A stretch of 64,000 nt of DNA from Paludibacter jiangxiensis. Its GTDB lineage: Bacteria > Bacteroidota > Bacteroidia > Bacteroidales > Paludibacteraceae. The notes under the pieces were generated by a model. It saw only the letters and a program-made list of their open reading frames with translations. It had not been told where the DNA came from and searched no databases. Every line of letters starts with the position of its first letter. Within the stretch, counting starts at the first letter, position 1. The stretch is taken from contig CAMBSB010000004.1 of NCBI GenBank assembly GCA_945870155.1, forward strand, positions 20,134 through 84,133, given 5' to 3'. Shown here one piece after another: positions 8,295 to 53,891 of the stretch. Made by a program: the position numbers and the translations under genes.

Positions 8295-10367
8295 ATGAAA
8301 AAAATCATATTATCACTAATCATTTTATTTACAGCACAATACATTTTTAGCCAAAGCATAAAATCTATAAATATAACAACGGCAGGTACTTTAAAAGACA
8401 ATATAAGTTTAACAGAACAAAAAACTGTAACTACACTTACAGTTTCGGGTAATATTGATGCACGTGATTTTGCTTTTATGCGCGATAAAATGCAAGTTTT
8501 GTCAGTTCTCGATTTAAATTCTTCTGTAATTAATAGTTATACAGGAATTCAGGGCACTTATTCCGGTTCAAACACAGTGTATCCTGCAAACGAAATTCCT
8601 GTATATGCTTTTTTCAATCCACTATTATATACTTATAAATCATCGCTTACAAGCATAAAATTTCCCTCAACAACCACAAAGATTGGGACACAAGCATTTT
8701 ATTATAGTTGGAATTTGGCTGGCACAATAAATATACCGGCATCATTGACATCGATTGCCGATTATGCTTTTTATGGTTGTTCGTCAATTGCATCATTCAC
8801 TGTAGCTAACTCAAATACACGATTTTCGGCCTTAAATGGTGTGCTTTTTAACAAAATTCAGGACAGTTTATTTGTTTTTCCTCCGGCAAAAAGTGGTTCA
8901 TACACCATTCCAACTACTGTAAAACATATTGGCGCATCGGCATTCGAGAGCTCATATAATTTAACTTCAGTAATAATTCCAAATACTATAACAAGTATTG
9001 GAAGTTATGCATTTTCATATTGTTCGGGCATTTCGGGTGCTTTAACTTTACCAACATCTTTAAAAAAACTAGGCGATGGTGCATTTTATGGTTGTTCGAA
9101 ACTTACAAGTGTAACAATTCCAGCTACATTAACCGATATTGGTTATTACTGTTTTCTCGAAAGTAATTTAGTTACAGCCTTTAACGTAATTTCATCAAAC
9201 CCTGATTATACTTCGGTGGATGGTATGTTGATGAGTAAAAACCAGGACACTCTTTTTAGTTGTCCACCGGCTAAAACAGGTCCGATTACTGTACCAAGTA
9301 CAGTGAAACTAATTGGAAGTTATGCTTTCTACAATTGCACAAAAATTTCCGGTACATTAACAATTCCAGCTTCGGTTGATTATATTGGGAATTATGCATT
9401 TTACAACAGTTCACTTATCTCATCTTTCGAAGTAAACCCGCAAAATTTATATTTTACTGCCGAAAATGGAGTTTTATTCTCAAAAACCAAAGATCGTTTA
9501 TTGGTTTACCCGGTTGCAAAATCAGGTGTGTATCAAATGCCTAGAACTATAAAAACAATCGATCCGGCTGCATTCGCTTTTTGCTCAAGTATAACCGGCA
9601 CATTACAATTACCCGCATCGGTTACATCAATTGGCCTTTATGCATTTTATAATTGTACACAAATTTCAGCCCTTGATGTTGATGCCGGAAACAAGGAATA
9701 TTCCTCAGATAATGGTGTATTATATAAACATGAAATGGATACTCTATTAATTTGTCCATTAGGTAAAACAGGAAGTTATACCATTCCAGAAAACGTGAAA
9801 TATATTAGTTATTCTGCATTTGGAGGATGTAGCGGCATCACTTCAATTACATTTCCAACAACTCTGACAGGTATAGGCAATTATGCTTTTGCATATTGCA
9901 CTGGGTTAAGCAAAATTCAAATTTCTAAAAGCACATCAAACATTGCAAATGGAGCCTTTTATAGTTGCTCAAATTTAGTTGAAATTAGCATTGTCAACCC
10001 GGAACCTCCTATAGTTGATTATTACACTTTTGATTTGGTAAATAAAACTACTTGTAAACTTATTGTTCCTACAGGATCTAAATCTACTTATCAAACCGTG
10101 CCATATTGGAGTGAATTTATAAACATTTCAGAAAGCGAATTTTCCAACAAAATTGAGGTTCAAAAAATAGATCAACATGTTTATGTGCAAAACAATGGAA
10201 TAATGGTTGAAGAATTAAAACTTGGTGAACTGATTGAAATATTTAGCATTGAAGGACGAAAACTCATTTCAGAAAAAGCTACATATCAAAAAAAGTTTTG
10301 GAGATTACCCTCAAATTCAATATATTTGGTGAAAATATCAAATAATGTTTTTAAAATATCACTATAA
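8295..10367 (+). CDS. BspA-like leucine-rich-repeat surface protein with probable T9SS C-terminal domain
   Basis: Signal peptide; repeated IPASLTSIADYAFYGCSSI-type LRR_5 units; C-terminal IEIFSIEGRKLI...SIYLVKISN. Confidence 0.88.
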   Translation: MKKIILSLIILFTAQYIFSQSIKSINITTAGTLKDNISLTEQKTVTTLTVSGNIDARDFAFMRDKMQVLSVLDLNSSVINSYTGIQGTYSGSNTVYPANEIPVYAFFNPLLYTYKSSLTSIKFPSTTTKIGTQAFYYSWNLAGTINIPASLTSIADYAFYGCSSIASFTVANSNTRFSALNGVLFNKIQDSLFVFPPAKSGSYTIPTTVKHIGASAFESSYNLTSVIIPNTITSIGSYAFSYCSGISGALTLPTSLKKLGDGAFYGCSKLTSVTIPATLTDIGYYCFLESNLVTAFNVISSNPDYTSVDGMLMSKNQDTLFSCPPAKTGPITVPSTVKLIGSYAFYNCTKISGTLTIPASVDYIGNYAFYNSSLISSFEVNPQNLYFTAENGVLFSKTKDRLLVYPVAKSGVYQMPRTIKTIDPAAFAFCSSITGTLQLPASVTSIGLYAFYNCTQISALDVDAGNKEYSSDNGVLYKHEMDTLLICPLGKTGSYTIPENVKYISYSAFGGCSGITSITFPTTLTGIGNYAFAYCTGLSKIQISKSTSNIANGAFYSCSNLVEISIVNPEPPIVDYYTFDLVNKTTCKLIVPTGSKSTYQTVPYWSEFINISESEFSNKIEVQKIDQHVYVQNNGIMVEELKLGELIEIFSIEGRKLISEKATYQKKFWRLPSNSIYLVKISNNVFKISL

Positions 10368-10571: not shown

Positions 10572-11252
10572 ATGAAAAAAGAAAATTTATTTATTGCAAC
10601 TTTTTTGGGTGTAGCACTTAGTTTTTGTGCATGTCAGAGCAATGATGCTCTTAACAGTGAAATTTTAGCTCCTGAAGTTGAACAGGCAGTTAGCAATGAA
10701 ATTGAAAGTACTGATGGTTTGATGCAAGTATCTTCCTTTACTTCAAATCCTATTTCACTTACAGATGCTGAAAAATCAGGTTTGTATTTGATGCGTGAAG
10801 AAGAAAAAATGGCACGTGATGTATATAGTTTTTTCTATACAAAATTTAAATTTCGTATATTTGGGAATATCACTAAAAGTGAAAATGTGCATTCAAATGC
10901 TGTTTTAAGACTTATTACTTATTTTGGGTTAACTGATCCGGCTGTAGCAACTGTTGCAGTTTTTAAAGATCCTACTTTGCAGGCGCTTTACAACAAATTT
11001 ACTACAGAAGCAACTACTGTTGATCAAGCATTGAAAACAGGAGCATTTATCGAAGAATATGATATTGCCGATTTAAAAAGATTAATAGCAGAAACACAAA
11101 ACAAAGACATCAAGTTGGTGTATGGTAATTTGATGAGAGGCTCAGAGTTTCATCTGAAAGCATTTACCGGTGTTTTAAAATTAAGAGGTATAGTTTATGT
11201 ACCAACAATTCTTTCAATAGAAGAATATAATTTAATAATTGCGAAAAAATAG
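10572..11252 (+). CDS. DUF2202 ferritin-like domain lipoprotein
   Basis: Lipobox SFCACQS; LYLMREEEKMARDVYSFFYTKF and GSEFHLKAFTGVL typical of DUF2202. Confidence 0.82.
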   Translation: MKKENLFIATFLGVALSFCACQSNDALNSEILAPEVEQAVSNEIESTDGLMQVSSFTSNPISLTDAEKSGLYLMREEEKMARDVYSFFYTKFKFRIFGNITKSENVHSNAVLRLITYFGLTDPAVATVAVFKDPTLQALYNKFTTEATTVDQALKTGAFIEEYDIADLKRLIAETQNKDIKLVYGNLMRGSEFHLKAFTGVLKLRGIVYVPTILSIEEYNLIIAKK

Positions 11253-11275
11253 TTAAAGCACACCAATTTGGTTTA

Positions 11276-11310
11276 AAAAATGTATCCTTAATGAAGGATA
11301 CATTTTTTAA
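11276..11310 (+). terminator. Terminator after the DUF2202 gene
   Basis: TGTATCCTT aatg AAGGATACA followed by TTTTTT. Confidence 0.8.
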
Positions 11311-11433
11311 GTAATTAAATTAAAGGCACAAGAATTTGTAGCTATTTTGACAAATTAGTATTATCAGAAAAAAGAAAAAATCAGAATTAAAAATCTGGCA
11401 TTCTTAAAAATATATATAAAATAAGCAGAAATC

Positions 11434-11673
11434 ATGACAATCAGGAAAAACATTGCTATCAGCGACGAAGGATTTTTATTTAATCCTACCACAGGCGATT
11501 CGTTTTCGACAAATGGAATTGGAGCTGAGATAGTATTATTAATGAAAAAAAATATTTTATTGTCCGAAGTGGTAGATACTATGTGCAATAAATACGATGT
11601 AGATAAAACACTTTTCGAACGTGATCTTGAAGAATTTATGCTTCAATTGAAAGATTACAGTATTCTTGAGTAG
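11434..11673 (+). CDS. PqqD family protein (RRE-like)
   Basis: 79 aa; IAISDEGFLFNPTTGDSFSTNGIGAEIVLLMKKN...VVDTMCNKYDVDKTLFERDLEEFMLQLKDYSIL matches the PqqD-fold pattern. Confidence 0.75.
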   Translation: MTIRKNIAISDEGFLFNPTTGDSFSTNGIGAEIVLLMKKNILLSEVVDTMCNKYDVDKTLFERDLEEFMLQLKDYSILE

Positions 11674-11713
11674 AGGTAAGAGGTAAGTGGTAAGAAAGTA
11701 AGAAATTAATAAA

Positions 11714-12769
11714 ATGAGTAAAGACATTAAACATAAAATTGTAATTGCAGTAACAGGCTTGAATGCCATTGATAGTCCGGGGCCAGGTGTAGCTGTAATA
11801 AGAGCGATACGTGAATGTCCCGATTTTGAAGTACGTATCATTGGATTGTCATACGAATCGCTTGAGCCTGGATTATATATGCACGATTTGGTAGATAAAA
11901 CCTATCAAATTCCCTATCCAACAGCTGGAACTGATGCACTAATGGGTAGAATACAATATATACATGAAAAAGAAAACTTAGAACTAATCATACCCAATTT
12001 TGACGCAGAACTTTTTAATTTTATGAAATTACGTGATGCGCTAAAAAAAATGGGGATAGCCACATTTATGCCCGATTTGGATCAATTCGAAGCACGGGAT
12101 AAAATGAAATTATTCGAATTTGGTAAAAAACATGATTTTTGCGTACCCAAGGACAAAATTATTCATGAGTTTAGAGAATTGGCTCAACTCGAAAAAGATT
12201 TTGAATATCCTATGGTAATAAAAGGTAAGTTTTACGATGCTATTATTGCTAATAGTATGGAGCAGGTTGAAAAAGCCTTCTATAAAATTCTATCCAAATG
12301 GGGATTACCAATTATTGTCCAGGAATTTATAAAAGGAACTGAGATAAATATAGCTGCATTGGGCGATGGCGAAGGAAATGCTATAAGTGTGATACCTATG
12401 CGAAAACTCTATATCACTGATAAAGGAAAAGCTTGGGCCGGTATTACCCTCGACGATGAAAGTTTTATTGAATTGGCTCAAAAATTTATTAAAGCTACCA
12501 AATGGCGTGGAGGGTGTGAGTTGGAAGTAATGCTAAGCTACGATGGAAAACCTTACATAATGGAAGTCAATCCACGATTCCCTGCTTGGATTTACCTTAC
12601 AGCTGCTGCCGGTCAAAATCAGCCTGCTAGCTTAGTTAAAATGGCTTTTGGTCAAAAAGTAGAACCATTTACAGAGTACGAAGTAGGAAAAATATTTGTT
12701 CGCTACGCTTGGGATTTAATAACTGATATCAGGGAGTTTCAAAAAATATCGGGAAATGGGGAACTCTAA
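11714..12769 (+). CDS. ATP-grasp (CarB-like) ligase
   Basis: YPMVIKGKFYDA, IIVQEFIKGTEINIAALGD, GGCELEVML...PYIMEVNPRFPAWIYLTAAAG. Confidence 0.88.
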   Translation: MSKDIKHKIVIAVTGLNAIDSPGPGVAVIRAIRECPDFEVRIIGLSYESLEPGLYMHDLVDKTYQIPYPTAGTDALMGRIQYIHEKENLELIIPNFDAELFNFMKLRDALKKMGIATFMPDLDQFEARDKMKLFEFGKKHDFCVPKDKIIHEFRELAQLEKDFEYPMVIKGKFYDAIIANSMEQVEKAFYKILSKWGLPIIVQEFIKGTEINIAALGDGEGNAISVIPMRKLYITDKGKAWAGITLDDESFIELAQKFIKATKWRGGCELEVMLSYDGKPYIMEVNPRFPAWIYLTAAAGQNQPASLVKMAFGQKVEPFTEYEVGKIFVRYAWDLITDIREFQKISGNGEL

Positions 12770-12813
12770 GCATTTACAATTTAATCATTTACGATTTACA
12801 ATTTGAAGATATT

Positions 12814-14163
12814 ATGGAAAAATTAAGATACGAAAGGCCATTCATAATTAAAATGAACGCCGGATTAATGAATAAATTTGGTTCAAAAACTGAAAATGAG
12901 CCTGTTACACATATCGAAAGTGTAGCTGTTAAAAGCTTAATGAATGAATATGGGTCACCGCTATTTGTAATTTCCGAAAAACAAATCAGACGTAATTATC
13001 AGAATGCACAACGCATTTTTAAAACCCGTTATCCAAAAGTACAATTTGCATGGTCATATAAAACCAATTACAACAATGCTGTGTGTCGAATTTTCCATCA
13101 GGAAGGTTCGTGGGCCGAAGTGGTTTCGGGCTTTGAATACGAAAAAGCTCTCGGAAATGGCGTTTCGGGCAGTAAAATAATTTTCAACGGACCTGATAAA
13201 AGTGATAAAGACTTGATTACAGCATCCCAAAATGGTTCATTGATTCATATCGATCATTATGATGAATTATATACTTTGATTCGGTTGAGCGAAGAAAACA
13301 ACCTGAAACCACGTGTTGCCATTCGTGTTAATATGGATACAGGCATTTATCCAAAGTGGGACAGATTTGGCTTTAATTTCGAAAACGGTCAAGCTTGGAA
13401 TGCCTTAACGCGAATTATCAATTCCCAAAACCTCGAACTTGTAGGAATTCATTGCCATATAGGTACTTTTATGCTTTCGCCTAATGCGTATGCCATTGCT
13501 GCCCGTAATTTATGTGAGTTAGCGTGGACAGCTAAAGAACGTTTTGGAAAAATGGTTCAATACATTGATCTTGGTGGTGGATTTCCTTCAACCAATACAC
13601 TCAAAGGTGCTTATTTACCCGGAACAGATACAGTTCCATCTATCGACCAATTTGCCGATGCTATTTCCGATGTTATTCTTGGCTATGGTTTTAAGCAGGA
13701 CGAATTGCCTTTGCTGATTCTCGAAAGTGGTCGTGCTTTGATTGACGATGCCGGATATTTGCTAGGTACTGTACTAGCGACCAAACGATTATCAGATGGC
13801 AGGCGTGCTACAATTATGGATTTTGGATTAAATTCATTGTTCACATCGCTGTGGTACGAACATAAAATAAGTCCGGCTCAAAAATTGGGCAATCAAAACG
13901 AAGAAATGGTCATGTTTGGACCGCTTTGTATGAATATTGATGTAGTTCGTGAAAGTATAAACATGCCAATGTTACAAAAAGGCGATCAGGTAGTAGTGCA
14001 TAAAGTAGGAGCATATAATATGACGCAATGGATGCAATTTATCACCTATCGTCCGGCTATAGTTTTGATTGATACCGAAAATAATACACATATTATTCGC
14101 AAAGGCGAAGATTTGAGATACATGGAGGAATTGGAAAACATCCCGGAACATTTAAAATCGTAA
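12814..14163 (+). CDS. PLP-dependent decarboxylase, DAP/ornithine decarboxylase fold (LysA-like, not necessarily LysA)
   Basis: FAWSYKTNYNNAV (PLP Lys), VGIHCHIGTF, YIDLGGGFPS, LILESGRALI, MFGPLCMNIDVV. Confidence 0.88.
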   Translation: MEKLRYERPFIIKMNAGLMNKFGSKTENEPVTHIESVAVKSLMNEYGSPLFVISEKQIRRNYQNAQRIFKTRYPKVQFAWSYKTNYNNAVCRIFHQEGSWAEVVSGFEYEKALGNGVSGSKIIFNGPDKSDKDLITASQNGSLIHIDHYDELYTLIRLSEENNLKPRVAIRVNMDTGIYPKWDRFGFNFENGQAWNALTRIINSQNLELVGIHCHIGTFMLSPNAYAIAARNLCELAWTAKERFGKMVQYIDLGGGFPSTNTLKGAYLPGTDTVPSIDQFADAISDVILGYGFKQDELPLLILESGRALIDDAGYLLGTVLATKRLSDGRRATIMDFGLNSLFTSLWYEHKISPAQKLGNQNEEMVMFGPLCMNIDVVRESINMPMLQKGDQVVVHKVGAYNMTQWMQFITYRPAIVLIDTENNTHIIRKGEDLRYMEELENIPEHLKS

Positions 14164-14178
14164 TTGAGATAGAAAAAT

Positions 14179-16392
14179 ATGAGCATTCCCAAACCATTAG
14201 TGTTTTTGCAAAAAGAAGTATTACCGGCAATTTTAAACAGTTATTCTATTATCTTTTTTTTAGATAATAAGGTTTTAGCATCCACAATAATGTTGGTAAG
14301 TTTTTTTAATTTCTGGGCCGGTTTTAGTGGACTAGTTTCGGTTTTAATTGCTTTAACCATAGGCTATTCCATGCATCTTGATAAACAAACGCTTCGAAGT
14401 GGATTGTTTACATTTAATGCGTTATTGGTAGGTATTGGGATGGGTACATTTTTCGATCCGGGACTCGTATTTTTCAGTTTACTGGCATTGGCTTCATTGT
14501 TAACTATTTTACTCTCAGTAAGTTTTTCAAGTTGGTTTGGAAAATACAAATTACCATTTCTAAGTGTGCCGTTTGTAATAACATTTTGGTTTATAGTACT
14601 TCCTTCTTCTCATTTTGAGAACTTAGGTTTAACGCAACGAAGTATTTACTGGATAAACGAAGTGTATGCAGTTGGTGGTAATAATTTGCTTGATTTTTTT
14701 CAAACTGTCGACAATTTTAAAGTTAATTCACTGATTGATATTTACTTAAAATCTATCGGCTCAATTTTGTTTCAAAGCAATGTGTTAGCTGGCTTATTGA
14801 TTTCATTAGCATTACTTTATAGTTCACGTATATTATTTTCATTGTCGGTAATAGGTTTTTTATCGGCCTATTTCTTTGCACAATTTACCGGCTCGGAAGC
14901 AGCAAGTATAAATTATTACAATATTGGTGCTAATTACATGATGGTTGCATTTGCCATTGGTGGGTATTTTATTATTCCATCCAAACAGTCGTATCTTTGG
15001 ACAGTTTTGCTTATACCACTCACTTCCTTAGTTTTATTGTTTTTTTATAAACTCTTATCCTACATTCAGTTACCGGTATTTTCGTTGCCATTTTCGTTTG
15101 TAACAATATTGTTTCTATATTTCCTTCAAATGAGAACTCAGGTAAAAAGTCTTATTATCACCCCATTACAACAAAATTCACCTGAAAAAAATTTATATAC
15201 TTTCAGCAATAATAAAGATAGATTATCCGGTTTGTATTATATACCTTTGCATTTACCGCTGATGGGAGAATGGACTGTAACACAGGCACATAATGGAGAA
15301 ATAACACACAAAGGAGATTGGGGGCAAGCTTTCGACTTTATGATAACAGACCATGAAGGAAAAACCTATAAAAACAATGGCATAGCACTAAGCGATTTCT
15401 TATGTTATAATAAACCAGTATTTGCTGCAGCCGATGGTTATGTTGAGTCAATAATCGATTCGGTGGAAGACAATGTAATAGGAAAAGTAAACACAGTTAG
15501 CAATTGGGGAAATAGCATTGTAATTCGTCATGCATCCGGCTTATATACACAGCTGTCGCACCTAAAAAAAGGTTCATTTAAAGTAACTAAAGGCGATTTT
15601 GTAAATAAAGGCGATATGTTGGCACTCTGTGGAAATTCAGGACGTTCACCCGAACCGCATGTACATTTTCAGGTACAGATATATCCTATAATTGGATCAA
15701 GAACAATAACTTATCCTTTTGCATATTATTTCAAACAACTTGCAGATGACAAACAGCAATTGGTTCAATTCGAAATACCAAAACTTGGAGATAAAATTAG
15801 TAATGTTTCAATTGACAAATTTCAATTTAATGCATTTAACTTATTACCCGACAGTTCGTTTACTTTTAAATATACACTCAACAATTCAGTTGAGAAAAAT
15901 CTAAGTTGGGATATATATACTGATGCTTACAATCAAAAATACGTACATTGTTCGCAGACTAACTCAGTTGCATATTTTGTTAACGATGGGTATATGTTTT
16001 ATTTTACAGCGTTTTATGGTGATAAATCTTCTATACTTTATTACTTTTTTCTATCTGCTTATAAAATATTTTTGGGTGAAACAACTAAAAACCGCTTGGA
16101 TGATTCATTGGCTTTAAGCATGTTAGCAAGTTCAAAATTTTATACTTGGATAAACGATTTTATTGCACCATTCTATAATTTTATCCGTGTAAGTTTTCAT
16201 TCAAATATTATTGAATCCGAAATGTCATTGAATAAAGGAACCATTAAATATAGTTCCGAAATTGAATTGAAATACCTGAAAAAATCAAAAATAATTAGTC
16301 GTTCGGAACTCACAATTAACGAGACCGGTATTACTGCTTTTGAATATACAAATGATAAAATAAAGATGAAAGCCACATGTATAAACCTCTGA
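14179..16392 (+). CDS. Urea-transporter-family membrane domain fused to C-terminal M23 (LytM) peptidase domain
   Basis: UT-like NFWAGFSGLVSVLIALTIGYSMHLDKQTLRSGLFTFNALLVGIGMGTFF; M23 motifs HKGDWGQAFD and SGRSPEPHVHFQVQIYP. Confidence 0.85.
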   Translation: MSIPKPLVFLQKEVLPAILNSYSIIFFLDNKVLASTIMLVSFFNFWAGFSGLVSVLIALTIGYSMHLDKQTLRSGLFTFNALLVGIGMGTFFDPGLVFFSLLALASLLTILLSVSFSSWFGKYKLPFLSVPFVITFWFIVLPSSHFENLGLTQRSIYWINEVYAVGGNNLLDFFQTVDNFKVNSLIDIYLKSIGSILFQSNVLAGLLISLALLYSSRILFSLSVIGFLSAYFFAQFTGSEAASINYYNIGANYMMVAFAIGGYFIIPSKQSYLWTVLLIPLTSLVLLFFYKLLSYIQLPVFSLPFSFVTILFLYFLQMRTQVKSLIITPLQQNSPEKNLYTFSNNKDRLSGLYYIPLHLPLMGEWTVTQAHNGEITHKGDWGQAFDFMITDHEGKTYKNNGIALSDFLCYNKPVFAAADGYVESIIDSVEDNVIGKVNTVSNWGNSIVIRHASGLYTQLSHLKKGSFKVTKGDFVNKGDMLALCGNSGRSPEPHVHFQVQIYPIIGSRTITYPFAYYFKQLADDKQQLVQFEIPKLGDKISNVSIDKFQFNAFNLLPDSSFTFKYTLNNSVEKNLSWDIYTDAYNQKYVHCSQTNSVAYFVNDGYMFYFTAFYGDKSSILYYFFLSAYKIFLGETTKNRLDDSLALSMLASSKFYTWINDFIAPFYNFIRVSFHSNIIESEMSLNKGTIKYSSEIELKYLKKSKIISRSELTINETGITAFEYTNDKIKMKATCINL

Positions 16393-17534
16393 TATTTATA
16401 CTTTTAATCACTATTCCTTTACATGCTCAAATTACGATGGATGAGCAAAAAATTGACAGTTTAAGTTATAGTTACTACATGAGTGGCGACTGGAAGCAAT
16501 TAATTGAACTCGGAAAAGTAGCTGACAAAGAAGATGTGAATTTTAAGCATTTACAACAGCGTTTGGGTTATGCCAATTTTATGTTGGGAAATTATTACAA
16601 AACTATAAAACATTATACAAATGCCTTGCAATTTGATCCTACTGATCAAATTACGCATAGCTATTTGTATTATGCAGCCATTAATGTGGGTGATAATGAA
16701 ATGGCTATGTTTCATGCTTCGAAACTAAATAAAGAAGCTCAAAAAGTCATGAAATTGAAAAGATTGCAAGTGGTTGATGCCGTTGATTTTGAATTTAATT
16801 ACAAAATTAACGACAGTGATATTCGCTCAAATCCAAATTATACACGTATTGGAATAAATTCAAAACCTGATTTTCGATTTAATATTTATCAGTCCTTTTC
16901 ACAATATAACCAAACTAATGATTCAACAACTCAAGTAAAACAAAACGAATATTTCTTATTGTTATCTTACAGTTTATTTAGTAGAACAACAATGCGTTTT
17001 GGGTATCATTACCTGAATACTAAAGTGGATGATGCCATGTATAATTATAAAGATACAATAAAAACAAATGTGTTTTATGGTAATTTAAGTCAGCGAATTG
17101 GCAGGTTTGATTTGGGGCTAAGTAGCTCATTATTAACCGGCGATACTATACAAATTCAAACCGGTGCTCATATTGGATTAGCATTACCAGGTAAATTAAA
17201 ACCATATCTAAAATCTTCGTTGTATACAATAAGCCGAAACAATATTAACCGACTAATTTATTCCCAATCTGCCGGTATATTCGCTACAAAAAAATTGTGG
17301 CTCGAAGGCGAAATCACATTGGGAAATTTAGATAATTACGTAGAAAACAATGGATTATATGTTTACAATTCGCTTGATGCTACAAAATTCAGAGTTGGTA
17401 CAACTGCATTTTGGTATTTAGCTCCCAAAATTACTTTATTTGCAAATTATACTTACGACAAAAAACAAATAACAGATACTCAAATTTATTACAATCAAAA
17501 TTCATTATCAGGAGGATTTATATGGAAACTTTAA
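16377..17534 (+). CDS. TPR protein with C-terminal outer-membrane beta-barrel-like (YaiO-like) region
   Basis: Signal peptide; TPR-like segment; alternating amphipathic C-terminal strands ending SLSGGFIWKL; start overlaps upstream stop. Confidence 0.7.
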   Translation: MYKPLIFILLITIPLHAQITMDEQKIDSLSYSYYMSGDWKQLIELGKVADKEDVNFKHLQQRLGYANFMLGNYYKTIKHYTNALQFDPTDQITHSYLYYAAINVGDNEMAMFHASKLNKEAQKVMKLKRLQVVDAVDFEFNYKINDSDIRSNPNYTRIGINSKPDFRFNIYQSFSQYNQTNDSTTQVKQNEYFLLLSYSLFSRTTMRFGYHYLNTKVDDAMYNYKDTIKTNVFYGNLSQRIGRFDLGLSSSLLTGDTIQIQTGAHIGLALPGKLKPYLKSSLYTISRNNINRLIYSQSAGIFATKKLWLEGEITLGNLDNYVENNGLYVYNSLDATKFRVGTTAFWYLAPKITLFANYTYDKKQITDTQIYYNQNSLSGGFIWKL

Positions 17535-18139
17535 AATTCAGGATATTAGTTGTAACTGTTTTATTTTCAGGCTTATTGCTTAATGCACAAACAGCAGCTC
17601 GTCAATCAGCCTTTAGTAAAAGCTACGAATTAGAAAATGCATCGAATTATGCATCTGCAATAAAAGAAGTGAAAACTGTATTTGATACGGATGATTATTT
17701 TTGCAATATCCGATTGGGATGGTTGTATTATTTAAGTAAAAATTATACTGAATCAATCAAATATTACGATAAAGCCATTTCTTTAAAACCTTATGCCATA
17801 GAAGCCCGGTTTGGATGTATAAAACCATTAAGTGCAAGCGAAAATTGGGAAAAAGTGAAAGCACATTACTTACAAATTCTTAAAATAGACCCTCAAAACA
17901 CTACTGCAAACTACTGGTTAGGAGTTATTTACTATAATCGCAAGCAATATAGTTCCGCAGCCAATTTATTCGGTAAAGTAATAAATTTGTATCCGCTGGA
18001 CTACGATTCGGTGATTATGTTGGCATGGACAAAACTATATTTGGGAAAAATGGGGGATGCAAAAGTACTATTTAATCATGCACTTACCATTCGTCCTAAT
18101 GATGTTTCCGCAGTTGCCGGACTGAAGTTAATAAAGTAG
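17522..18139 (+). CDS. TPR protein, exported (true start probably 17522, not 17411)
   Basis: METLKFRILVVTVLFSGLLLNAQ signal peptide; TPR units; overlap with upstream stop fits translational coupling. Confidence 0.75.
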   Translation: METLKFRILVVTVLFSGLLLNAQTAARQSAFSKSYELENASNYASAIKEVKTVFDTDDYFCNIRLGWLYYLSKNYTESIKYYDKAISLKPYAIEARFGCIKPLSASENWEKVKAHYLQILKIDPQNTTANYWLGVIYYNRKQYSSAANLFGKVINLYPLDYDSVIMLAWTKLYLGKMGDAKVLFNHALTIRPNDVSAVAGLKLIK

Positions 18140-18154
18140 AGAAAGAAATTATTA

Positions 18155-20155
18155 TTACTTATTCTTCAATATATCTTCCAGCTTAATTAATTCATCACGG
18201 AGCTGCGCAGCTTCGAGGAATTCGAGTTTTTTGGCGGCTTCGTGCATGGCTTTGCGGGTTTTAGCAATGGTTTTTTCAAGTGCCGGTTTCGACATATATT
18301 GTACTACCGGATCGGCTGCTATACCCGGTGTATTTTCCGGTTCAATGTAAGCAGTTGGTTCTGCTTTGCTGAACGAATTTCTTTCTCCCTTGATAATGGC
18401 AGTTGGTGTAATTCCGTGTAATTCATTGTATGCCAACTGCTTTTCTCTTCTGCGAGTCGTTTCGCTAATAGTCTTGGCCATACTATCTGTAATTTTATCG
18501 GCATACATAATAACCCTGCCATTTAAGTTACGGGCAGCTCTACCCGCTGTTTGCGTCAACGAACGATGGGAACGTAAAAAACCCTCTTTGTCGGCATCGA
18601 GAATTGCCACAAGGGAAACTTCAGGCAAATCCAAGCCTTCGCGCAATAAATTTACACCCACTAAAACATCATAAATTCCACGTCGCAAATCTTCCATTAT
18701 CTGCACCCTGTCCAAAGTATCTACATCAGAATGGATATAATTACACCTCACACCCATTTTAGCCAGATAATCGGTCAACTCTTCTGCCATACGTTTTGTA
18801 AGCGTGGTAACCAAAACACGTTCATCCTTTTCTACTCTAAGCGTTATTTCTTCCAGCAAATCATCAATTTGATTCAAGCTTGGTCGCACATCAATAATGG
18901 GATCGAGCAATCCGGTAGGACGTATTAACTGGTCTACAATAATTCCTTCGCTTTTTGCTAATTCGTAATCGGCCGGTGTGGCACTTACATATATTGTTTG
19001 CGGATTCAATGCTTCAAACTCGTCAAATTTAAGTGGTCTGTTATCTTTGGCCGAAGGAAGCCTAAAACCATATTCAACTAAATTCAGTTTACGAGCTGCA
19101 TCACCGCCAAACATGGCTTTAATTTGGGGCAATGTAACATGACTTTCGTCGATGACCATCAAATAATCATCCGGAAAATAATCGAGCAAGCAAAATGGAC
19201 GAGTTCCTGCGGCACGACCATCAAAATAACGGGAATAGTTCTCAATTCCAGAACAATAGCCCAACTCTTTTATCATTTCCAAATCGTAATTTACACGTTC
19301 GTAAATACGTTTGGCTTCATAATCTTTACCTTGCGACTTGAAATATTCAACTTGCAGCAGTAAATCGGCTTCAATATACTGTATAGCACTGTTGATGCGT
19401 TCTTTGGTAGTTACAAATATGCTTGCCGGATAAATTTTATAGGCATCGAAATGTTCAATTACTTTTAAATTGATAGGCTCAACCGTTAATATTTCATCAA
19501 TTTCGTCGCCCCAGAAAACAACACGTAAAATAAAATCGGTGTAAGCCGGAAAAATGTCTACGGTGTCGCCTTTAACCCTGAAATTTCCGCGATTCAGCTC
19601 AATCTCATTGCGTGAATACAAGCTATCGACTAACGAACGTAAAAATAAATTCCTAACAATTTTCTGACCTTTGAATATTTCAATTACATTACTCGTAAAA
19701 TCATCTGGGTTACCTATACCATATAAACACGAAACCGAAGACACAACCAGCACATCCCTCCTACCCGACAGCAAAGATGATGTTGTTGCCAAGCGGAGTT
19801 TTTCTATTTCCTGATTGATAGACAAATCCTTTTCGATATAAACATCGCTTACCGGCAAATAAGCTTCAGGTTGGTAATAATCGTAATACGACACAAAATA
19901 CTCAACCGCGTTATCAGGAAAAAAGGCTTTAAACTCGCTATACAACTGAGCAGCAAGCGTTTTATTGTGGCTTAATACTAAAGTTGGACGTTTCACCTCA
20001 TTCACTACATTGGCAATAGTAAATGTTTTTCCCGAACCGGTTACTCCCAATAAAGTTTGAAATGGTATGTGAGAATTTAAACCCGCCACCAGCTGTTTAA
20101 TAGCTTCGGGTTGATCACCGGTAGGACGATAAGGTGAAGTGAGATTAAAAGACAT
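18155..20155 (-). CDS. uvrB: Excinuclease ABC subunit B
   Basis: FQTLLGVTGSGKTFTIANVV, SYYDYYQPEAYLP, DESHVTLPQ, LLREGLDLPEVSLVAILDADKEGFLRS, C-terminal UVR domain. Confidence 0.98.
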   Translation of the reverse strand: MSFNLTSPYRPTGDQPEAIKQLVAGLNSHIPFQTLLGVTGSGKTFTIANVVNEVKRPTLVLSHNKTLAAQLYSEFKAFFPDNAVEYFVSYYDYYQPEAYLPVSDVYIEKDLSINQEIEKLRLATTSSLLSGRRDVLVVSSVSCLYGIGNPDDFTSNVIEIFKGQKIVRNLFLRSLVDSLYSRNEIELNRGNFRVKGDTVDIFPAYTDFILRVVFWGDEIDEILTVEPINLKVIEHFDAYKIYPASIFVTTKERINSAIQYIEADLLLQVEYFKSQGKDYEAKRIYERVNYDLEMIKELGYCSGIENYSRYFDGRAAGTRPFCLLDYFPDDYLMVIDESHVTLPQIKAMFGGDAARKLNLVEYGFRLPSAKDNRPLKFDEFEALNPQTIYVSATPADYELAKSEGIIVDQLIRPTGLLDPIIDVRPSLNQIDDLLEEITLRVEKDERVLVTTLTKRMAEELTDYLAKMGVRCNYIHSDVDTLDRVQIMEDLRRGIYDVLVGVNLLREGLDLPEVSLVAILDADKEGFLRSHRSLTQTAGRAARNLNGRVIMYADKITDSMAKTISETTRRREKQLAYNELHGITPTAIIKGERNSFSKAEPTAYIEPENTPGIAADPVVQYMSKPALEKTIAKTRKAMHEAAKKLEFLEAAQLRDELIKLEDILKNK

Positions 20156-46484: not shown

Positions 46485-49400
46485 CTACCTCGTTAACATA
46501 AACTTAAAGCTCATGCCAAAATTGGTTGATGAAACAGGGAACGATGACGAAATAAGCGGTGTGCTCATCTGTCGGTCGAAGTACATTTGTATATTAATCT
46601 TGGAGCTAAATACATAATCGGCAATAATTTTAAGCGTAAACATTTTGTTACCGCTCGAAGCTTGCGTGATGTTTTCATCAATTTTTCGAAGCAAAGTTTT
46701 AATATCTTTGTACGATAAATCGGCACTCAATTTCAAATCGTTGGTTACCCTTGTCTGCTGACTATTTTTTAATTTCATTATCACATCAAAGTCCTTTAAC
46801 AAATACCCCACTCCAACTACAAATTCATCCGAAGAAGCTTCGATTAATTGTGTGCTTGTCAGGTTTAAAGCCAGATTACGCTGTTTACGATACTCTAGTT
46901 TGGTTGTCATACTGTTTTTGAGAGCTGCATTTATTCCAATTAATGGGGCAAACTGCTCAGTTATCGAAACCGAAGCAATATCGTAAGGCGACGAAGGAAT
47001 TGGGTTATTTGACTGTACATCACGCACATAACCAAGTGCATTATTATCGTCCATGGCTACCCAAGTTGAAAATGAAGTGTAATTCCCAACACTGTAACGC
47101 GATGTATAAGCATGCGTTAAACTGATATTCCTGAAATTATCTTTCACCCAGGGAATACGCGTTAGCCCATCAAAATTAATACGCCAGTTTGGTAATATAT
47201 TCAAGATAGAAAGGAATGGATTTGTATCCATATTATTGGCATCCCTACCATTATAAGCAGCTAAAAAGGCAGGAATTAACACATCAGATGAGTTGATTCC
47301 ATAAATACCTTTTTTTGAATCATAATCTTTTCCTTTAATTGTTTCATCTTCGGCAAAGAAACCTGTTGATGGATATTTAGTTCTTTCCAGCTTGGCATTC
47401 AGTCTGTTAGCAATAATCTGGCGGTTAGCTAAAAAATTATCAAAAACATCAGATGCATAATTATTTGTAACATCACCTATAGGCTTAAATGCAGTTGCCA
47501 ACGAAATTTGAGTAATATTATAACTTCCTGTAAATGTGCGCGGCATACCATCAAACATATACTGAACAGTAGTATTATCTGCCGTATAACGTTTGGCATT
47601 CAGGTCAATCTTAAATCCGGGGAATGGTTCAAGACTGGCTTTGATATCTAAATCGGATGTAAATGCTGTAGACGCCGGATTTACTATTGAATCATTCATT
47701 ATTAACCAATCATTCTTAACAGCATTATTAATTGTATTGGCATCAAAGAACCCAAAAGCAAAGCCATAACCGGGAGCATTAAGTCCGTTGTTATCTTTTT
47801 CCTGACCAAGAATTCCCGGTTGATTGCGGAATCCGGGCAACACCATACTATTGGATTGACGATAAGTAATGGAAGCACGTCGGGTCATCATTATCAATCG
47901 TGTTGCAAAATCAATTACGTTTCGGCCAGCTGATTGCATATTGGGATCTAATGTAATAACCGATACAGAAATACTATCCATATTCAATTTAGGCGAAATT
48001 TCGAGGGATGTTGCATTCACCGTTTTATAATCTACAGGAAATGCTTTTCCGGTTTTTGTTTTGGCTATTAATGCAATCTTTTCGGAACCTAAATTATGCG
48101 TTATGGTAATTTTTTGATTCTTTTCCAGTTTAACTACCTGATTATAAGTTTTTGGATTAAACTTCTGATTATTATTTTGTTGCGAAGCAAATTTACGATT
48201 TAATTCTTTTAAATATTTCGATTTATTGTACAAAGTCTCAAAGTTTAACTGAGCATCAGCCGACCATGCACCCATAGTTGTAGCAATATTTCCAATTTCG
48301 GTTTTTCCTTTCATTAAAGCCGATCTGTTCCAACTATAAGTAGAATTGTATGAAGTATTGGCATTGATCCAGTCCAACAATGGAATTTTATTGATAGGCA
48401 ATGTCCATGAAGCTGAGAATACTTGTTGGAAAGTATAGGGATTACCCAATTTCTTGATACTCGACCAAACAGTATCTCGCCATTGCTCGTAATAATCTTT
48501 TCCAATTTCAGGAGTAAAATATGCCTCTTCTATGTTGGAGTTCATAGCCGACTGATAAGTAAAATGCAGGGATTTTGTCATATCATATTTTATGTCGAAA
48601 TTTCTATTCCACATAAAATCCTTACTGAAACTCAAATCGAAGTTTGTTGGAGCTCCTACCTGAGCCAAATCGCGCAATTTTATTTGTGAAAATTGTCGAT
48701 TCATATCGGTATTGAAACTCAAAGACGAAGGCAAATAATTGAAATTAAAATCTGAAATGATTTTAAATGCCGGTTTTTTGAGTGCTTTAATATTTTTAAA
48801 TGGTTCAACGGGTTGCGGATTAAATGAGAAATCGTAATTTAACGCCGCACGTTCCTGTTTTATCAAATTGGTTTCAATCTCAGCACTCGATTGATTTGTT
48901 TCGGTATATGCATAAGTAAAGCTCAGATTAGCAGGGTCATAAATCTGTGGTGTTTTACTTTTAATATTGATACGAGCAGATGATATATTAAAACTCTTCG
49001 AAGTGTTTCTTGTTTGCGAATTCATTGTCAAAGTATCTCTTTGAGCTTTGTTTTTCATAGCATTCAATGCATCATTTAACAACACATCTTCATCCAAAGG
49101 ATTGTATTTTGGTGTCAATTTTTCATCGGTATAGGAGAAATAAGCCGGCAACTGTATTTTTGCTTTTTCGGGCAAAAATCTTCCCAATTCAAGACTGGTA
49201 GAGAAATTCATTTGGTATAAATCATCATTACGCCTGTCCATAACATTGCTTTCGATGCTACCATAGCCGGCAGTTTCAACACGGCCCGATAAATTTACAT
49301 TTCCTAAATCGGACAATCCTATAGCCAAATTACCCATAGCAGCCCAGCCACCCTCTTCGTTAAATTCGGACATGCGCAATTCATTTACCCAAATTTCACC

Positions 49401-52400
49401 CGATTTTACTTCGCCACTAGTGTTTCTGATACCAATCATTATATTTTCTACATTCGAAATTGATGGATTTCCTACAACCCTTATTTTATTTTTTCCTTTA
49501 TCGTAAAATGGAATTAAATCAGAAATATAGGATCCATCTTGCTTGGATTGGTTGCGTTTAGTTTTAGCAGCTGTGAGCACATCAAATGAGAAATCGAACA
49601 TATTTTCAGGATACCAAACTATAGCGCGATCAGCTTCTGTGTCGGTATAAGTTCCTTCCGGAGTCAATTTCAATGGAATTTCATATTCATAATAATTATT
49701 TACCATATCAGAACCCATGCGAATAAAGCATGACAACTGATTATCTCCCAGATTATGAACATCTTCAGGTAATTTTTCGGCATGTACAAACATTTGTAAA
49801 CGTTTGTATTGACGCATGTCATAAGCGGTTTTTTTATAAACTGCACGGGCATCATTTGGCGAAAGTTCATTCACTTTCAATACCATAGCCTGTTCGTTCA
49901 GCTGCAATAACTGAGCCTGACCCGGATCAGAAACACGAGTTACACCCGGAGGTAACACATAATTTACAGGTGATTTATCTGCATTTTCTTCAATATTAAC
50001 TGCTTGTACATCAAGCGTTCCTAAGGATACAGGCAAATTGCCCGCCGTGTAAAGCTCTTTTGTGAAACTTCTCCATTCGCCACGAACTAAATCCATAGTT
50101 GCAAAGCGAAGATGCGTTTCTTTTTCAAAATCGGTCATAAACATACGCACGAAACGAATGGATTTAAAATTACGGATACTTCCAACTTTACCTCCATCTT
50201 TATCATAATCTCTGATTGGAATTTTAAACTGATACCAGGTAACTTTTTCTTCTTTTCCATTGGCTAAAGTTACATTGGAAGTATAACTATCGGTAATTCG
50301 GTTTTTGCCAATTTGCATGGAATCACGGCGGATAGAAATTTTATATTGAAAATACTTTTCGTATTCATTCAAAGTATTGTCCATATTAACATCCTCTACA
50401 TCGGGTAGTGAAGTAGCAGTTGTCGAAAAATTATCAGTTGTATTATTGGCTGCATCCGGCGAGTTACCATCTGTACCATTATATCTTTTATATCGCGTTA
50501 AAATATTGGCACTTTGGGTATCATAATAATTACCTTTGTAAAATTGGTAATCATCACCCGATGGGTCATTAATTGGTGAAAATTTATCTTCACTCATACG
50601 TTCGAGTGTCGAAGCATTGACTTTGGCTTTCACTTTATCAACATAGTCTTTGTATGTTGGAAAAATAAATTCTTTTTCGGTGGAAAGTCCATCTAAACCT
50701 ACGTCTTGATTTTTTCTGGCACCTACATTATTATCAAAAGCAGTTACTGTAGACTGTGTTTTAGGCACTCTACCCCAAATTGTTGACTCTGTTTTAGTAT
50801 CATCACCATCAAAAGACAAACCATGTTCAAAAAACTTTTTACCATCCTTTAAAATATCTTCACTTACATCACCCAAATTAAAATATAAATCGCCTCCTTT
50901 ATCTGTTCTATTTTCATCGTAAATAAAAGGATCCATCATCCAAAATTCGATATATTCGATATTTGATTTTTCAAAATCTGTTGCATCAAAACGGCGCATA
51001 ATACCTCCCCAACGATCTTTAGGATTTTTCAAAAACCCATTCTGATCCATTCCATCAATATCCAAATTATATGGACCCCGTTCGTTAGGATAAAACGAAA
51101 GATTCATAACAGTAAGTGTCGACCGGTCAGTAAAAAGTTGTTGTTTATTTGGGAAAACTTCCTTGTAAAGGACATCGCGTGTATAATGATTTGATTGTGA
51201 TTCTAAATTGTTTTGCAAATTTTTTGGCGTACTCGAGCCAGGAGTTTTGGTATTTAAAATCTGATCGACATAATACCAAGACATCAAGGCACGGTTTTTC
51301 CCATATTCAATGGTATTTTTTGTTGCTTCTTCAAAAAATGATGGGGTTGCCGACAAATACCAATTGAAAGGATAATGAATATCAATGGATGTTTTTGTTG
51401 ATTCAAAATCATCGAGATATGCCAATCCTTGTTTGCTTACAACTTTTGAATGTCCCGGAATTAATTGTGCAAACTCGGCGTTTAAAGCTATTGTAGATGG
51501 TTTTGTTGCGTTTACAAAGGGTAGTTTATCCAACATATTGGTCAAAAACTGTGATTCAGTTCGCCAAGCAGTATTTAATCCCCAAATTGTATTGGAAATA
51601 GGCTCACTACCTGTATTTACTTTTGTGGTTAAAGGCGTCTCCGACAAATGCATGATTGTTCCGCCTAAAGTAAAATTCTTATTGAATTCATACTCTAAAT
51701 GCGTACCCAACAAGGACTTACGTTGCATGCTAAACATGGATTGATTTTCGAGTTTAACATCGATATTTGTACCAGATTCTAAAATTGATTGGTTAATAAT
51801 ATTCACACTTCCCATGGTGTAATCAACCGTATAATCAACATTTTCGGTAAGCGTAGCGCCACCTGCAGTAACTGTAACCGAACCACGCGGTACATTCATG
51901 GCATTCAATCGAATTTCAGAACCGCTTGATGACTTATATTCACCAACAATTCTAAATTTATTTTTCTCGCTAAGTTCCTGAGCTACAACTAAGGTAGAAT
52001 CGTATAGTTCCTGAAAAACATATTTATTAGCTATAATACTATCACCAATTGCTTTTCTTAAGTGCGACCCAAAAGGTTCGAGAACGGGGAAAATAATTCT
52101 TCCTGAACTTGACATGGCTGTTAGTCCTTCCACATAGTCAAAACGACCATCGGGAGTTAAATTATTTTTCTGGTCAAGTCTATCCAAATTCATTACCCGA
52201 AGTAATAATTTATTTTTTATGTTTCCTTCGGTAATATATTGCATCTCGGTTCCAACTGAATCATTGCGGTAAACCACATTCAGTTCAAATTTTTCGGCTT
52301 CCATCTGCATTGCACCTAAGGAATACACGTTTTTCATCATCAAATCCCAAGTAGCAAGTTGTGGTGATTGCGCTGTACTTTTTATCAATTTTATCAACAA

Positions 52401-53891
52401 TGCATCCGGAGCAGTTACAGCATCGGTCGAAAACTCACCTACCTGAAAAATTTTACCCCCGTAACTATATTCATAAGCAACTCCCAAAACTTCGTCGGGG
52501 TTTAAAGTAGAACGAAGCGACAAAATACCTAAGGTACTATTAAAAGTGTATTCAGATGATTCAAGTCGACGAGCACTTTCAATTTTTTCATAATCTTCGC
52601 CTCCAATAATGTCATTTGTGCCAAAATTATCCGAAAGTACAGAATTTGTTTTCTGAATATCCCGAACATCGGTCAGGTTTTTAACCAAATCATAGAGTTT
52701 ATTTGCATTATTTTGAGGCAAATTTCCTGCACCAATCTTTGTCCAAAAATTATTATCAATTCTTTTAGGTTCACCTAAATCCATAAAAGCCACGATATTA
52801 CGTGCCTGATCGTAATCGGCTCTTTTATTTGTAATCCACACTTCAATCCTGTTAATAGTTATACCTGATGAAACCTGTGGTAGATTACTCATGGCATCTT
52901 CATAATTTTCTCTGAAATAATGACCAATAAAAAAATGCCTGTTCTCGTCATAATTATCAGCGCTAATAGTAAAATCGCTGGTTTGAGCACCACCTTTTGA
53001 ACTAACTGTTTTTGTTTCAGAATTTTGCTGAGTTGCAATTGCTGAAACGCTCAATTTTCCAAATTTTAAATCTGTTTTAATACCAAATAGAGCCGTACTT
53101 CCAGTAATCAATGAGCTATTCAGAGGCATACTAACGTTCCCCGCTTGCAAATTTTGAATAATATCATCTTCCTTGCCTTTGTAAGCCAATTTCACCATCT
53201 TCTGATCAAAATCAAAAGTTGATTCTGTATTATAATTTAAACCCAAATTTACTTTATCCCCCACAGTTCCTGTTACATTCATTTGAATTTTCATATCAAA
53301 ATCGGGCGTAATAGTTGATCTGTTTCGTTCCGTAAGAGCAGGATTATCTATTTTGTTTTGCTTAATTCCAAACACCAATTCGGCTGAACCGGAAGTACGA
53401 ACCTGAACACCACCAGGACCAAATATCTTATCGGCTGGACCGATATTAAATTTCATATCTGTAAGCGAAAACTTATCTTCATTGGATCTTTCTGAAGAAA
53501 TATTTTTTTCTTTCCAATAATCACGTATTTCTTTTTGAGCCGAATAATTTCTATATTCATTTTCAGTCATTAAATAGGGAGTTGCAATTTCCATATCACC
53601 AACTTGAATTTTGAACACATAAGTACCGGTTTTAGGATTATATTCAACCACAGATTTTACATTCTCAGGCTGTTTTGAATCCATAGGATAGCTTTGCTCT
53701 ATGTCCTCAAAGGTATTTTGAGTATATTTTTTAATAGGGAATTTTTTCAGTGTATCTTTTTCAACTACAGGACTATTAACATCCTGAATTTCAAAATCAA
53801 CTATTGGAGCTGAACTCATAAATGCGTAAACAGTGCTTACCACAACTATAAGGAATACAATGATTGGAAAGATTCTTTTAATATATATCAT
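46485..53891 (-). CDS. sprA: Cell surface / gliding motility protein SprA (T9SS translocon)
   Basis: 2468-aa OM protein; GPADKIFGPGGVQVRTSGSAELVFGIKQNKIDNP, NAEFAQLIPGHSKV, YLDDFESTKTSIDI, GEIWVNELRMSEFNEEGGWAA; adjacent to ruvA. Confidence 0.95.
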   Translation of the reverse strand: MIYIKRIFPIIVFLIVVVSTVYAFMSSAPIVDFEIQDVNSPVVEKDTLKKFPIKKYTQNTFEDIEQSYPMDSKQPENVKSVVEYNPKTGTYVFKIQVGDMEIATPYLMTENEYRNYSAQKEIRDYWKEKNISSERSNEDKFSLTDMKFNIGPADKIFGPGGVQVRTSGSAELVFGIKQNKIDNPALTERNRSTITPDFDMKIQMNVTGTVGDKVNLGLNYNTESTFDFDQKMVKLAYKGKEDDIIQNLQAGNVSMPLNSSLITGSTALFGIKTDLKFGKLSVSAIATQQNSETKTVSSKGGAQTSDFTISADNYDENRHFFIGHYFRENYEDAMSNLPQVSSGITINRIEVWITNKRADYDQARNIVAFMDLGEPKRIDNNFWTKIGAGNLPQNNANKLYDLVKNLTDVRDIQKTNSVLSDNFGTNDIIGGEDYEKIESARRLESSEYTFNSTLGILSLRSTLNPDEVLGVAYEYSYGGKIFQVGEFSTDAVTAPDALLIKLIKSTAQSPQLATWDLMMKNVYSLGAMQMEAEKFELNVVYRNDSVGTEMQYITEGNIKNKLLLRVMNLDRLDQKNNLTPDGRFDYVEGLTAMSSSGRIIFPVLEPFGSHLRKAIGDSIIANKYVFQELYDSTLVVAQELSEKNKFRIVGEYKSSSGSEIRLNAMNVPRGSVTVTAGGATLTENVDYTVDYTMGSVNIINQSILESGTNIDVKLENQSMFSMQRKSLLGTHLEYEFNKNFTLGGTIMHLSETPLTTKVNTGSEPISNTIWGLNTAWRTESQFLTNMLDKLPFVNATKPSTIALNAEFAQLIPGHSKVVSKQGLAYLDDFESTKTSIDIHYPFNWYLSATPSFFEEATKNTIEYGKNRALMSWYYVDQILNTKTPGSSTPKNLQNNLESQSNHYTRDVLYKEVFPNKQQLFTDRSTLTVMNLSFYPNERGPYNLDIDGMDQNGFLKNPKDRWGGIMRRFDATDFEKSNIEYIEFWMMDPFIYDENRTDKGGDLYFNLGDVSEDILKDGKKFFEHGLSFDGDDTKTESTIWGRVPKTQSTVTAFDNNVGARKNQDVGLDGLSTEKEFIFPTYKDYVDKVKAKVNASTLERMSEDKFSPINDPSGDDYQFYKGNYYDTQSANILTRYKRYNGTDGNSPDAANNTTDNFSTTATSLPDVEDVNMDNTLNEYEKYFQYKISIRRDSMQIGKNRITDSYTSNVTLANGKEEKVTWYQFKIPIRDYDKDGGKVGSIRNFKSIRFVRMFMTDFEKETHLRFATMDLVRGEWRSFTKELYTAGNLPVSLGTLDVQAVNIEENADKSPVNYVLPPGVTRVSDPGQAQLLQLNEQAMVLKVNELSPNDARAVYKKTAYDMRQYKRLQMFVHAEKLPEDVHNLGDNQLSCFIRMGSDMVNNYYEYEIPLKLTPEGTYTDTEADRAIVWYPENMFDFSFDVLTAAKTKRNQSKQDGSYISDLIPFYDKGKNKIRVVGNPSISNVENIMIGIRNTSGEVKSGEIWVNELRMSEFNEEGGWAAMGNLAIGLSDLGNVNLSGRVETAGYGSIESNVMDRRNDDLYQMNFSTSLELGRFLPEKAKIQLPAYFSYTDEKLTPKYNPLDEDVLLNDALNAMKNKAQRDTLTMNSQTRNTSKSFNISSARINIKSKTPQIYDPANLSFTYAYTETNQSSAEIETNLIKQERAALNYDFSFNPQPVEPFKNIKALKKPAFKIISDFNFNYLPSSLSFNTDMNRQFSQIKLRDLAQVGAPTNFDLSFSKDFMWNRNFDIKYDMTKSLHFTYQSAMNSNIEEAYFTPEIGKDYYEQWRDTVWSSIKKLGNPYTFQQVFSASWTLPINKIPLLDWINANTSYNSTYSWNRSALMKGKTEIGNIATTMGAWSADAQLNFETLYNKSKYLKELNRKFASQQNNNQKFNPKTYNQVVKLEKNQKITITHNLGSEKIALIAKTKTGKAFPVDYKTVNATSLEISPKLNMDSISVSVITLDPNMQSAGRNVIDFATRLIMMTRRASITYRQSNSMVLPGFRNQPGILGQEKDNNGLNAPGYGFAFGFFDANTINNAVKNDWLIMNDSIVNPASTAFTSDLDIKASLEPFPGFKIDLNAKRYTADNTTVQYMFDGMPRTFTGSYNITQISLATAFKPIGDVTNNYASDVFDNFLANRQIIANRLNAKLERTKYPSTGFFAEDETIKGKDYDSKKGIYGINSSDVLIPAFLAAYNGRDANNMDTNPFLSILNILPNWRINFDGLTRIPWVKDNFRNISLTHAYTSRYSVGNYTSFSTWVAMDDNNALGYVRDVQSNNPIPSSPYDIASVSITEQFAPLIGINAALKNSMTTKLEYRKQRNLALNLTSTQLIEASSDEFVVGVGYLLKDFDVIMKLKNSQQTRVTNDLKLSADLSYKDIKTLLRKIDENITQASSGNKMFTLKIIADYVFSSKINIQMYFDRQMSTPLISSSFPVSSTNFGMSFKFMLTR

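Follow-up and report, generated by a model that had tools for sequence, protein, structure and literature searches.

A conserved six-gene operon of Bacteroidota combining ligase and decarboxylase enzymes with a channel-peptidase and a predicted porin

Six genes on the + strand of the Paludibacter jiangxiensis window (the whole 64,000-nucleotide stretch analysed) are inherited as one unit in many environmental Bacteroidota. The operon consists of a cytosolic enzyme module A (PqqD, ATP-grasp, decarboxylase) and an envelope module B (a urea-transporter-fold channel fused to an M23 peptidase, UT::M23; a TPR protein; a TPR-porin). Each of the parts has known relatives, and the combination matches no system found in the open-access literature or the family libraries. 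It may well be, with the case for and against about evenly balanced, that module A makes an amide-linked, decarboxylated amino-acid product, that module B exports it by a dedicated route, and that the M23 domain frees or trims it at the channel mouth.

Operon structure and co-inheritance

The features are as follows:
11273-11289 / 11294-11310: perfect 17-bp inverted repeat upstream of pqqD, ending in a T run, read directly from the sequence
11434..11673, + strand: pqqD, 79 aa, PqqD-like RRE protein, module A (PF05402, E=1.7e-10)
11714..12769, + strand: ATP-grasp ligase, 351 aa, module A (PF02655, PF15632)
12814..14163, + strand: PLP decarboxylase of the alanine-racemase fold, FigC/FslC-like, 449 aa, module A (PF02784+PF00278)
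14179..16392, + strand: UT::M23, 737 aa, module B (PF03253, E=2e-54, and PF01551, E=7e-16, in a single ORF)
16377..17534, + strand: TPR-barrel, 385 aa, exported, module B (TPR and predicted 14-strand porin-like barrel)
17522..18139, + strand: TPR protein, 205 aa, exported, module B (TPR_2, E=2e-20; AGGAGG followed by ATG)

The ORFs are spaced by 40, 44 and 15 bp, followed by overlaps of 16 and 13 bp, and our ORF calls reproduce every figure that the sequence-only reading had given for a six-gene operon. The operon is bounded by the repeat at 11273-11310 and by a convergent uvrB-like gene (18155-20155, minus), named from its sequence. That reading had also placed a terminator before the operon. 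The repeat with its T run is there and is likely the terminator of the preceding DUF2202 gene, but the consensus terminator scan does not list it, probably because the A/T flanks of the repeat pair on.

Some neighbours recur as well. Upstream of the operon, 10 Paludibacter-type loci retain a BspA-type leucine-rich-repeat protein (window 8295-10367) and 5 loci the DUF2202 protein (window 10572-11252). Loci L062, L063, L064, L066-L068, L091, L093, L094 and L097 share a conserved secreted protein of ~280 aa immediately upstream; it contains FG-GAP-like repeats, and its C-terminal tail is of the type IX secretion kind. The window also holds a 2468-aa ORF at 46485-53891 (minus).

Searching GTDB genomes with UT::M23 gave 27 close loci in Paludibacter, Mariniphaga and other Bacteroidia. 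In the phylum sample, UT::M23 is carried by 34/396 Bacteroidota genomes, about a tenth, and ATP-grasp orthologues (E <= about 2e-90) occur in exactly the same 34. The family-balanced class sample of 289 Bacteroidia genomes contains 61 with the ATP-grasp (about a fifth), 66 with UT::M23 and 59 with both (Fisher p about 7e-51); the ATP-grasp lacks UT::M23 in 2/61 carriers (G480 and G614), both of them fragmented drafts. Homologues occurring mostly apart would have spoken against a common system, and the opposite is seen. Pairwise distances of the operon proteins correlate with r 0.87-0.95. The order pqqD, ATP-grasp, decarboxylase, UT::M23, followed by barrel and TPR, is kept across the 60 loci read, a statement that rests on loci with enough flanking sequence. 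pqqD adjoins the ATP-grasp gene in 51/53 loci (simple ORF calling overlooks it in some), the TPR gene is present in 53/60, and in one group of loci the genes after UT::M23 are TPR and one for another exported protein that is unclassified. Such shared gene order across 60 related loci is far beyond chance. Co-occurrence and conserved order thus back the earlier claim that the six genes form one undescribed system and, since the operon is kept as a unit at such frequency, it should do something of general use.

A few loci deviate in detail. In L071 a GIY-YIG nuclease gene (11228-11707, minus) lies between the decarboxylase and UT::M23. In L072 (G005) and L170 (G445) the UT::M23 reading frame is broken into two that overlap or adjoin, by sequencing error, decay or frameshifting; the break in G005 sits at a T7 run, where a one-base shift accounts for the split, and separate UT and M23 genes were therefore rejected in this genome. 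An apparent ATP-grasp::decarboxylase fusion in G500 was rejected too, its 1465-aa frame consisting of the ATP-grasp and an adjoining stretch of GC-rich DNA read in the wrong frame. On plasmids the searches gave nothing for UT and, for the enzymes, no more than distant ATP-grasps and decarboxylases of a generic kind. The operon matched none of the PADLOC anti-phage defence models, and we found no open-access report in which PqqD and ATP-grasp are joined with a urea transporter or M23.

Enzyme module A and its replacement

The decarboxylase had been labelled LysA-like from its sequence. The structure-database match and the active-site residues correct this label to FslC/FigC-like: the best solved relative is 7kh2 (E=2e-58), and of the two families FslC/FigC lies nearer to the enzyme than LysA. 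It scores below the cut-offs of both profiles, with 223.2 bits against 297.9 for LysA (TIGR01048) and 223.6 bits against 500 for FslC/FigC (NF041039). The catalytic loop reads GPLCMNID in the operon enzyme and GPSCMQHD in FslC/FigC, with Met beside the catalytic Cys in both, whereas ODC and DAPDC have an acid next to this Cys. In the specificity helix of the operon members shown, Thr (Ser in L074) replaces the DAPDC Arg that binds the distal carboxylate. Gln405, Trp406, Gln408 and Trp347 are conserved and peculiar to the operon family. Note that FigC residues His357, Arg387 and Asn389, proposed to bind citrate, are Ile, Gln and Met here, and citrate is therefore not a likely acyl part. The placement of FigC itself in the decarboxylase tree is unsure owing to its long branch.

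Plain lysine or polyamine biosynthesis, with the other genes as unrelated neighbours, would account for the distant similarity to LysA. Besides the operon enzyme, the genome encodes a LysA adjoining an aspartokinase-like gene (lysC-lysA), with a canonical DAP-decarboxylase site, i.e. Arg and an acid beside Cys; the absence of any other lysA, which would have spoken for lysine biosynthesis, therefore does not apply. Given this lysC-lysA pair, the DAPDC residues missing from the operon enzyme and the strict co-inheritance of the operon genes, this explanation is already contradicted, and we regard it as extremely improbable. By its residues the operon decarboxylase is not LysA and has a FigC-like pocket. 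Previously it has been shown that such decarboxylases form a clade of specialised metabolism that includes BtrK, which decarboxylates glutamate tethered to a carrier, and that FigC acts on N-citrylornithine, an amide-conjugated amino acid (PMC7857480).

The ATP-grasp keeps its catalytic motifs, ELE...ExNPR being conserved in 97% or more, and its sole solved relative, 2pn1, is a weak match. For PqqD the best solved relative is TbiB1, a lasso-peptide RRE (E=2e-8). We considered PqqD as a LysW-like C-terminal carrier and rejected this, the C-terminus of PqqD not being conserved.

Ribosomal peptides are the normal partners of PqqD-type proteins, and graspetides are made by ATP-grasp enzymes. A RiPP-type pathway is an alternative: a precursor encoded elsewhere would be recognised by PqqD and modified by the ATP-grasp and decarboxylase, and M23, a peptidase, would cut the leader before export. 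The likeness of PqqD to TbiB1 is in keeping with this. The sequence-only reading had noted the lack of a radical-SAM enzyme, a cyclase or an obvious precursor here, and none of the three is conserved across the 60 loci either. Apart from the operon genes no ORF of >=60 aa is common to the loci, and the gaps within the operon are <=44 bp. Moreover, neither operon enzyme reaches the curated cut-off of a RiPP family, and pores of the UT fold pass urea-sized solutes. We consider a RiPP-type pathway unlikely.

The two modules can be separated. G418 and G521 keep both on separate contigs, away from contig ends. In the class sample, 7 genomes have module B without module A, one of them (G572) being 68% complete. 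In the remaining 6/7 we find a second enzyme set, made up of a small VOC-like protein, a PRK06524 ATP-grasp and a decarboxylase of the fold-I Orn/Lys/Arg type (PF01276); in G430, G493, G482, G581 and G562 it lies divergent from UT::M23 on the same contig. The PRK06524 ATP-grasp family occurs in 22/289 genomes, in 6/7 genomes with module B only (Fisher p 6e-7) and in 0/61 genomes with module A; the six B-only genomes are related and represent one event, not six independent ones. The UT::M23 proteins of the B-only genomes form one clade (support 100/100) nested among the A-linked ones, which indicates that the enzyme module was swapped once. In the replacing ATP-grasp/PLP-decarboxylase pair the motifs STHKT and GELNPR are intact, and the decarboxylase has a different fold from the module A enzyme. 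This exchange for another ligase/decarboxylase pair is the strongest hint that module B serves chemistry of the type 'ligate, then decarboxylate'. It also gives a handle on the product: the candidate is any compound within reach of both enzyme sets.

The second enzyme set occurs without UT::M23 in 16 Bacteroidia genomes (L200-L213 plus L214 and L215), again as VOC, Orn/Lys/Arg-type decarboxylase and PRK06524 ATP-grasp, and is therefore not dedicated to module B. There it lies mostly beside GABA-type genes, the usual neighbours being a GABA-transaminase-like enzyme, a C-N hydrolase, a C45 Ntn-hydrolase and a succinate-semialdehyde-dehydrogenase-like enzyme. This suggests amine or GABA-type conjugates. 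Judged from its genes, the VOC/decarboxylase/PRK06524 cluster appears to be a second undescribed ligase/decarboxylase pathway; its PRK06524 ATP-grasp is probably misnamed 'biotin carboxylase'.

Envelope module B

UT::M23 has a UT-fold domain at about 16-320, an M23 metallopeptidase domain at about 360-505 and a beta-rich C-terminal domain. The UT domain matches dvUT and UT-B in sequence and fold, and the M23 domain matches the LytM fold. At the position of the dvUT filter residue Glu187 nearly all of the 56 sequences have Ser, Ala or Leu, with neither Glu nor Gln among the residues listed; at the position of dvUT Gln24, Gln is found in only 25/56. The urea transporter profile TIGR03441 scores 114 against a cut-off of 275. 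The loss of the filter Glu makes a plain urea channel unlikely. The PF03253 fold and the structural matches could also speak for uptake of urea or a small amide that the operon enzymes would then use; transport through UT channels is passive and can run in either direction. The changed filter position, the low profile score and an operon with no urease gene make this very improbable in our judgement.

The M23 zinc ligands (HxnD and HxH) and the catalytic His are conserved (H377, D386, H461, H494, H496). The side of the membrane on which the peptidase lies was judged from charge distribution: Lys/Arg average 11.6 in the predicted cytosolic UT loops and 2.5 in the outer ones, and all 56/56 sequences show this bias in the same direction. 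UT-B has the N-in/C-in orientation. On the positive-inside rule, the UT-B orientation and the lack of a hydrophobic segment after residue 320, the M23 domain is predicted on the cytoplasmic side (N-in/C-in). The AlphaFold2 model of UT::M23 (pLDDT 63) was discarded as topology evidence, its quality being too poor. A cytosolic M23 would be unusual, given that free-standing relatives of the same M23 subgroup carry signal peptides and are exported. Among exported free-standing M23 proteins, those of L225, L226 and L229 have an extra N-terminal domain before the peptidase, and they may be related to the protein from which the fused domain descends.

The orientation bears on a cell-wall or sensing system, in which a periplasmic M23 would trim peptidoglycan, perhaps for assembly of the TPR/porin conduit, while the enzymes decorate or recycle wall peptides. 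The intact zinc site with its catalytic His and the exported relatives, together with the export of the TPR proteins and the barrel, suit such a role. The charge bias in 56/56 and the missing later hydrophobic segment favour the other side for the peptidase, and wall function leaves the swap of ATP-grasp/decarboxylase sets unexplained. We hold a cell-wall or sensing role to be distinctly unlikely. Of the sequence-only reading, the cytosolic amide and decarboxylation enzymes working with envelope channels are retained; its wall remodelling by M23 gets no support from the charge bias, with the exported relatives pointing the other way.

The fifth gene is predicted to encode an exported TPR protein with a 14-strand porin-like barrel in the outer membrane. 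Its AlphaFold2 model (pLDDT 90, pTM 0.82) has TPR helices and 14 strands and resembles the barrels of OmpG, FadL and CymA.

Proposed pathway and comparison with known systems

In the dedicated-export pathway that we favour, the PqqD-like RRE protein would hold or present a peptide or protein partner in the cytosol, and the ATP-grasp would ligate an amino acid to an acceptor. In the order that we infer, the FigC-type PLP enzyme would then decarboxylate the ligated amino acid, as FigC does with N-citrylornithine and BtrK with its glutamyl-carrier. Release or trimming of the product ahead of transport would fall to the fused M23 domain, which is predicted to sit where the channel opens to the cytosol. 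The product, small and probably uncharged, would cross the inner membrane through the UT-fold channel, after which the TPR protein and TPR-porin may pass it onward through the outer membrane. The direction of transport could be import instead. Against this pathway stand the usual ribosomal role of PqqD-type proteins with no precursor conserved nearby, the exported M23 relatives, the poor UT::M23 model, and a second enzyme set that is not dedicated to module B.

A bolder form, which we put forward tentatively and find rather doubtful, is a new metabolite factory: RRE-guided ligation and decarboxylation of a tethered amino acid, with release by a cytosolic M23 in a UT-fold channel that feeds a TPR-porin. 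If this is true, the single exchange of the enzyme half for an unrelated ATP-grasp/decarboxylase set shows that the exporter is specific for the chemistry and not for those proteins. What the operon points to in any case is a small molecule not yet described, together with a UT-fold channel that carries a fused peptidase.

Compared with RRE-dependent RiPP pathways (PQQ, lasso peptides), the operon shares the PqqD fold, nearest to TbiB1, but has no precursor (among ORFs of >=60 aa), radical-SAM enzyme or cyclase. With FigC/FslC of rhizoferrin synthesis it has in common the alanine-racemase fold, the Cys-Met loop and Thr in the specificity helix; it differs in the absence of an NIS synthetase gene, the replaced citrate residues and the missed NF041039 cut-off. 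BtrJ is the ATP-grasp ligase of the butirosin pathway, and BtrJ/BtrK/BtrI likewise combine such a ligase with an AR-fold decarboxylase, BtrK, for a tethered amino acid. In contrast, the six operon proteins have no ACP domain by Pfam, the small protein is PqqD-like, and an envelope module is added. dvUT and UT-B share the fold and repeat structure of the operon channel, which differs in the lost filter Glu, the fused M23 and C-terminal domain, and the operon context. LytM/M23 peptidases (Csd1/2, DipM) have the same fold and zinc site, whereas the operon M23 forms one protein with a membrane channel and is predicted to face the cytosol. Finally, TPR-barrel exporters of the BcsC/PgaA/PelB type also pair periplasmic TPR with an outer-membrane barrel; the operon barrel has 14 strands, is closest to OmpG/FadL/CymA and has a short TPR part, and it stands in a small-molecule rather than a polysaccharide context.
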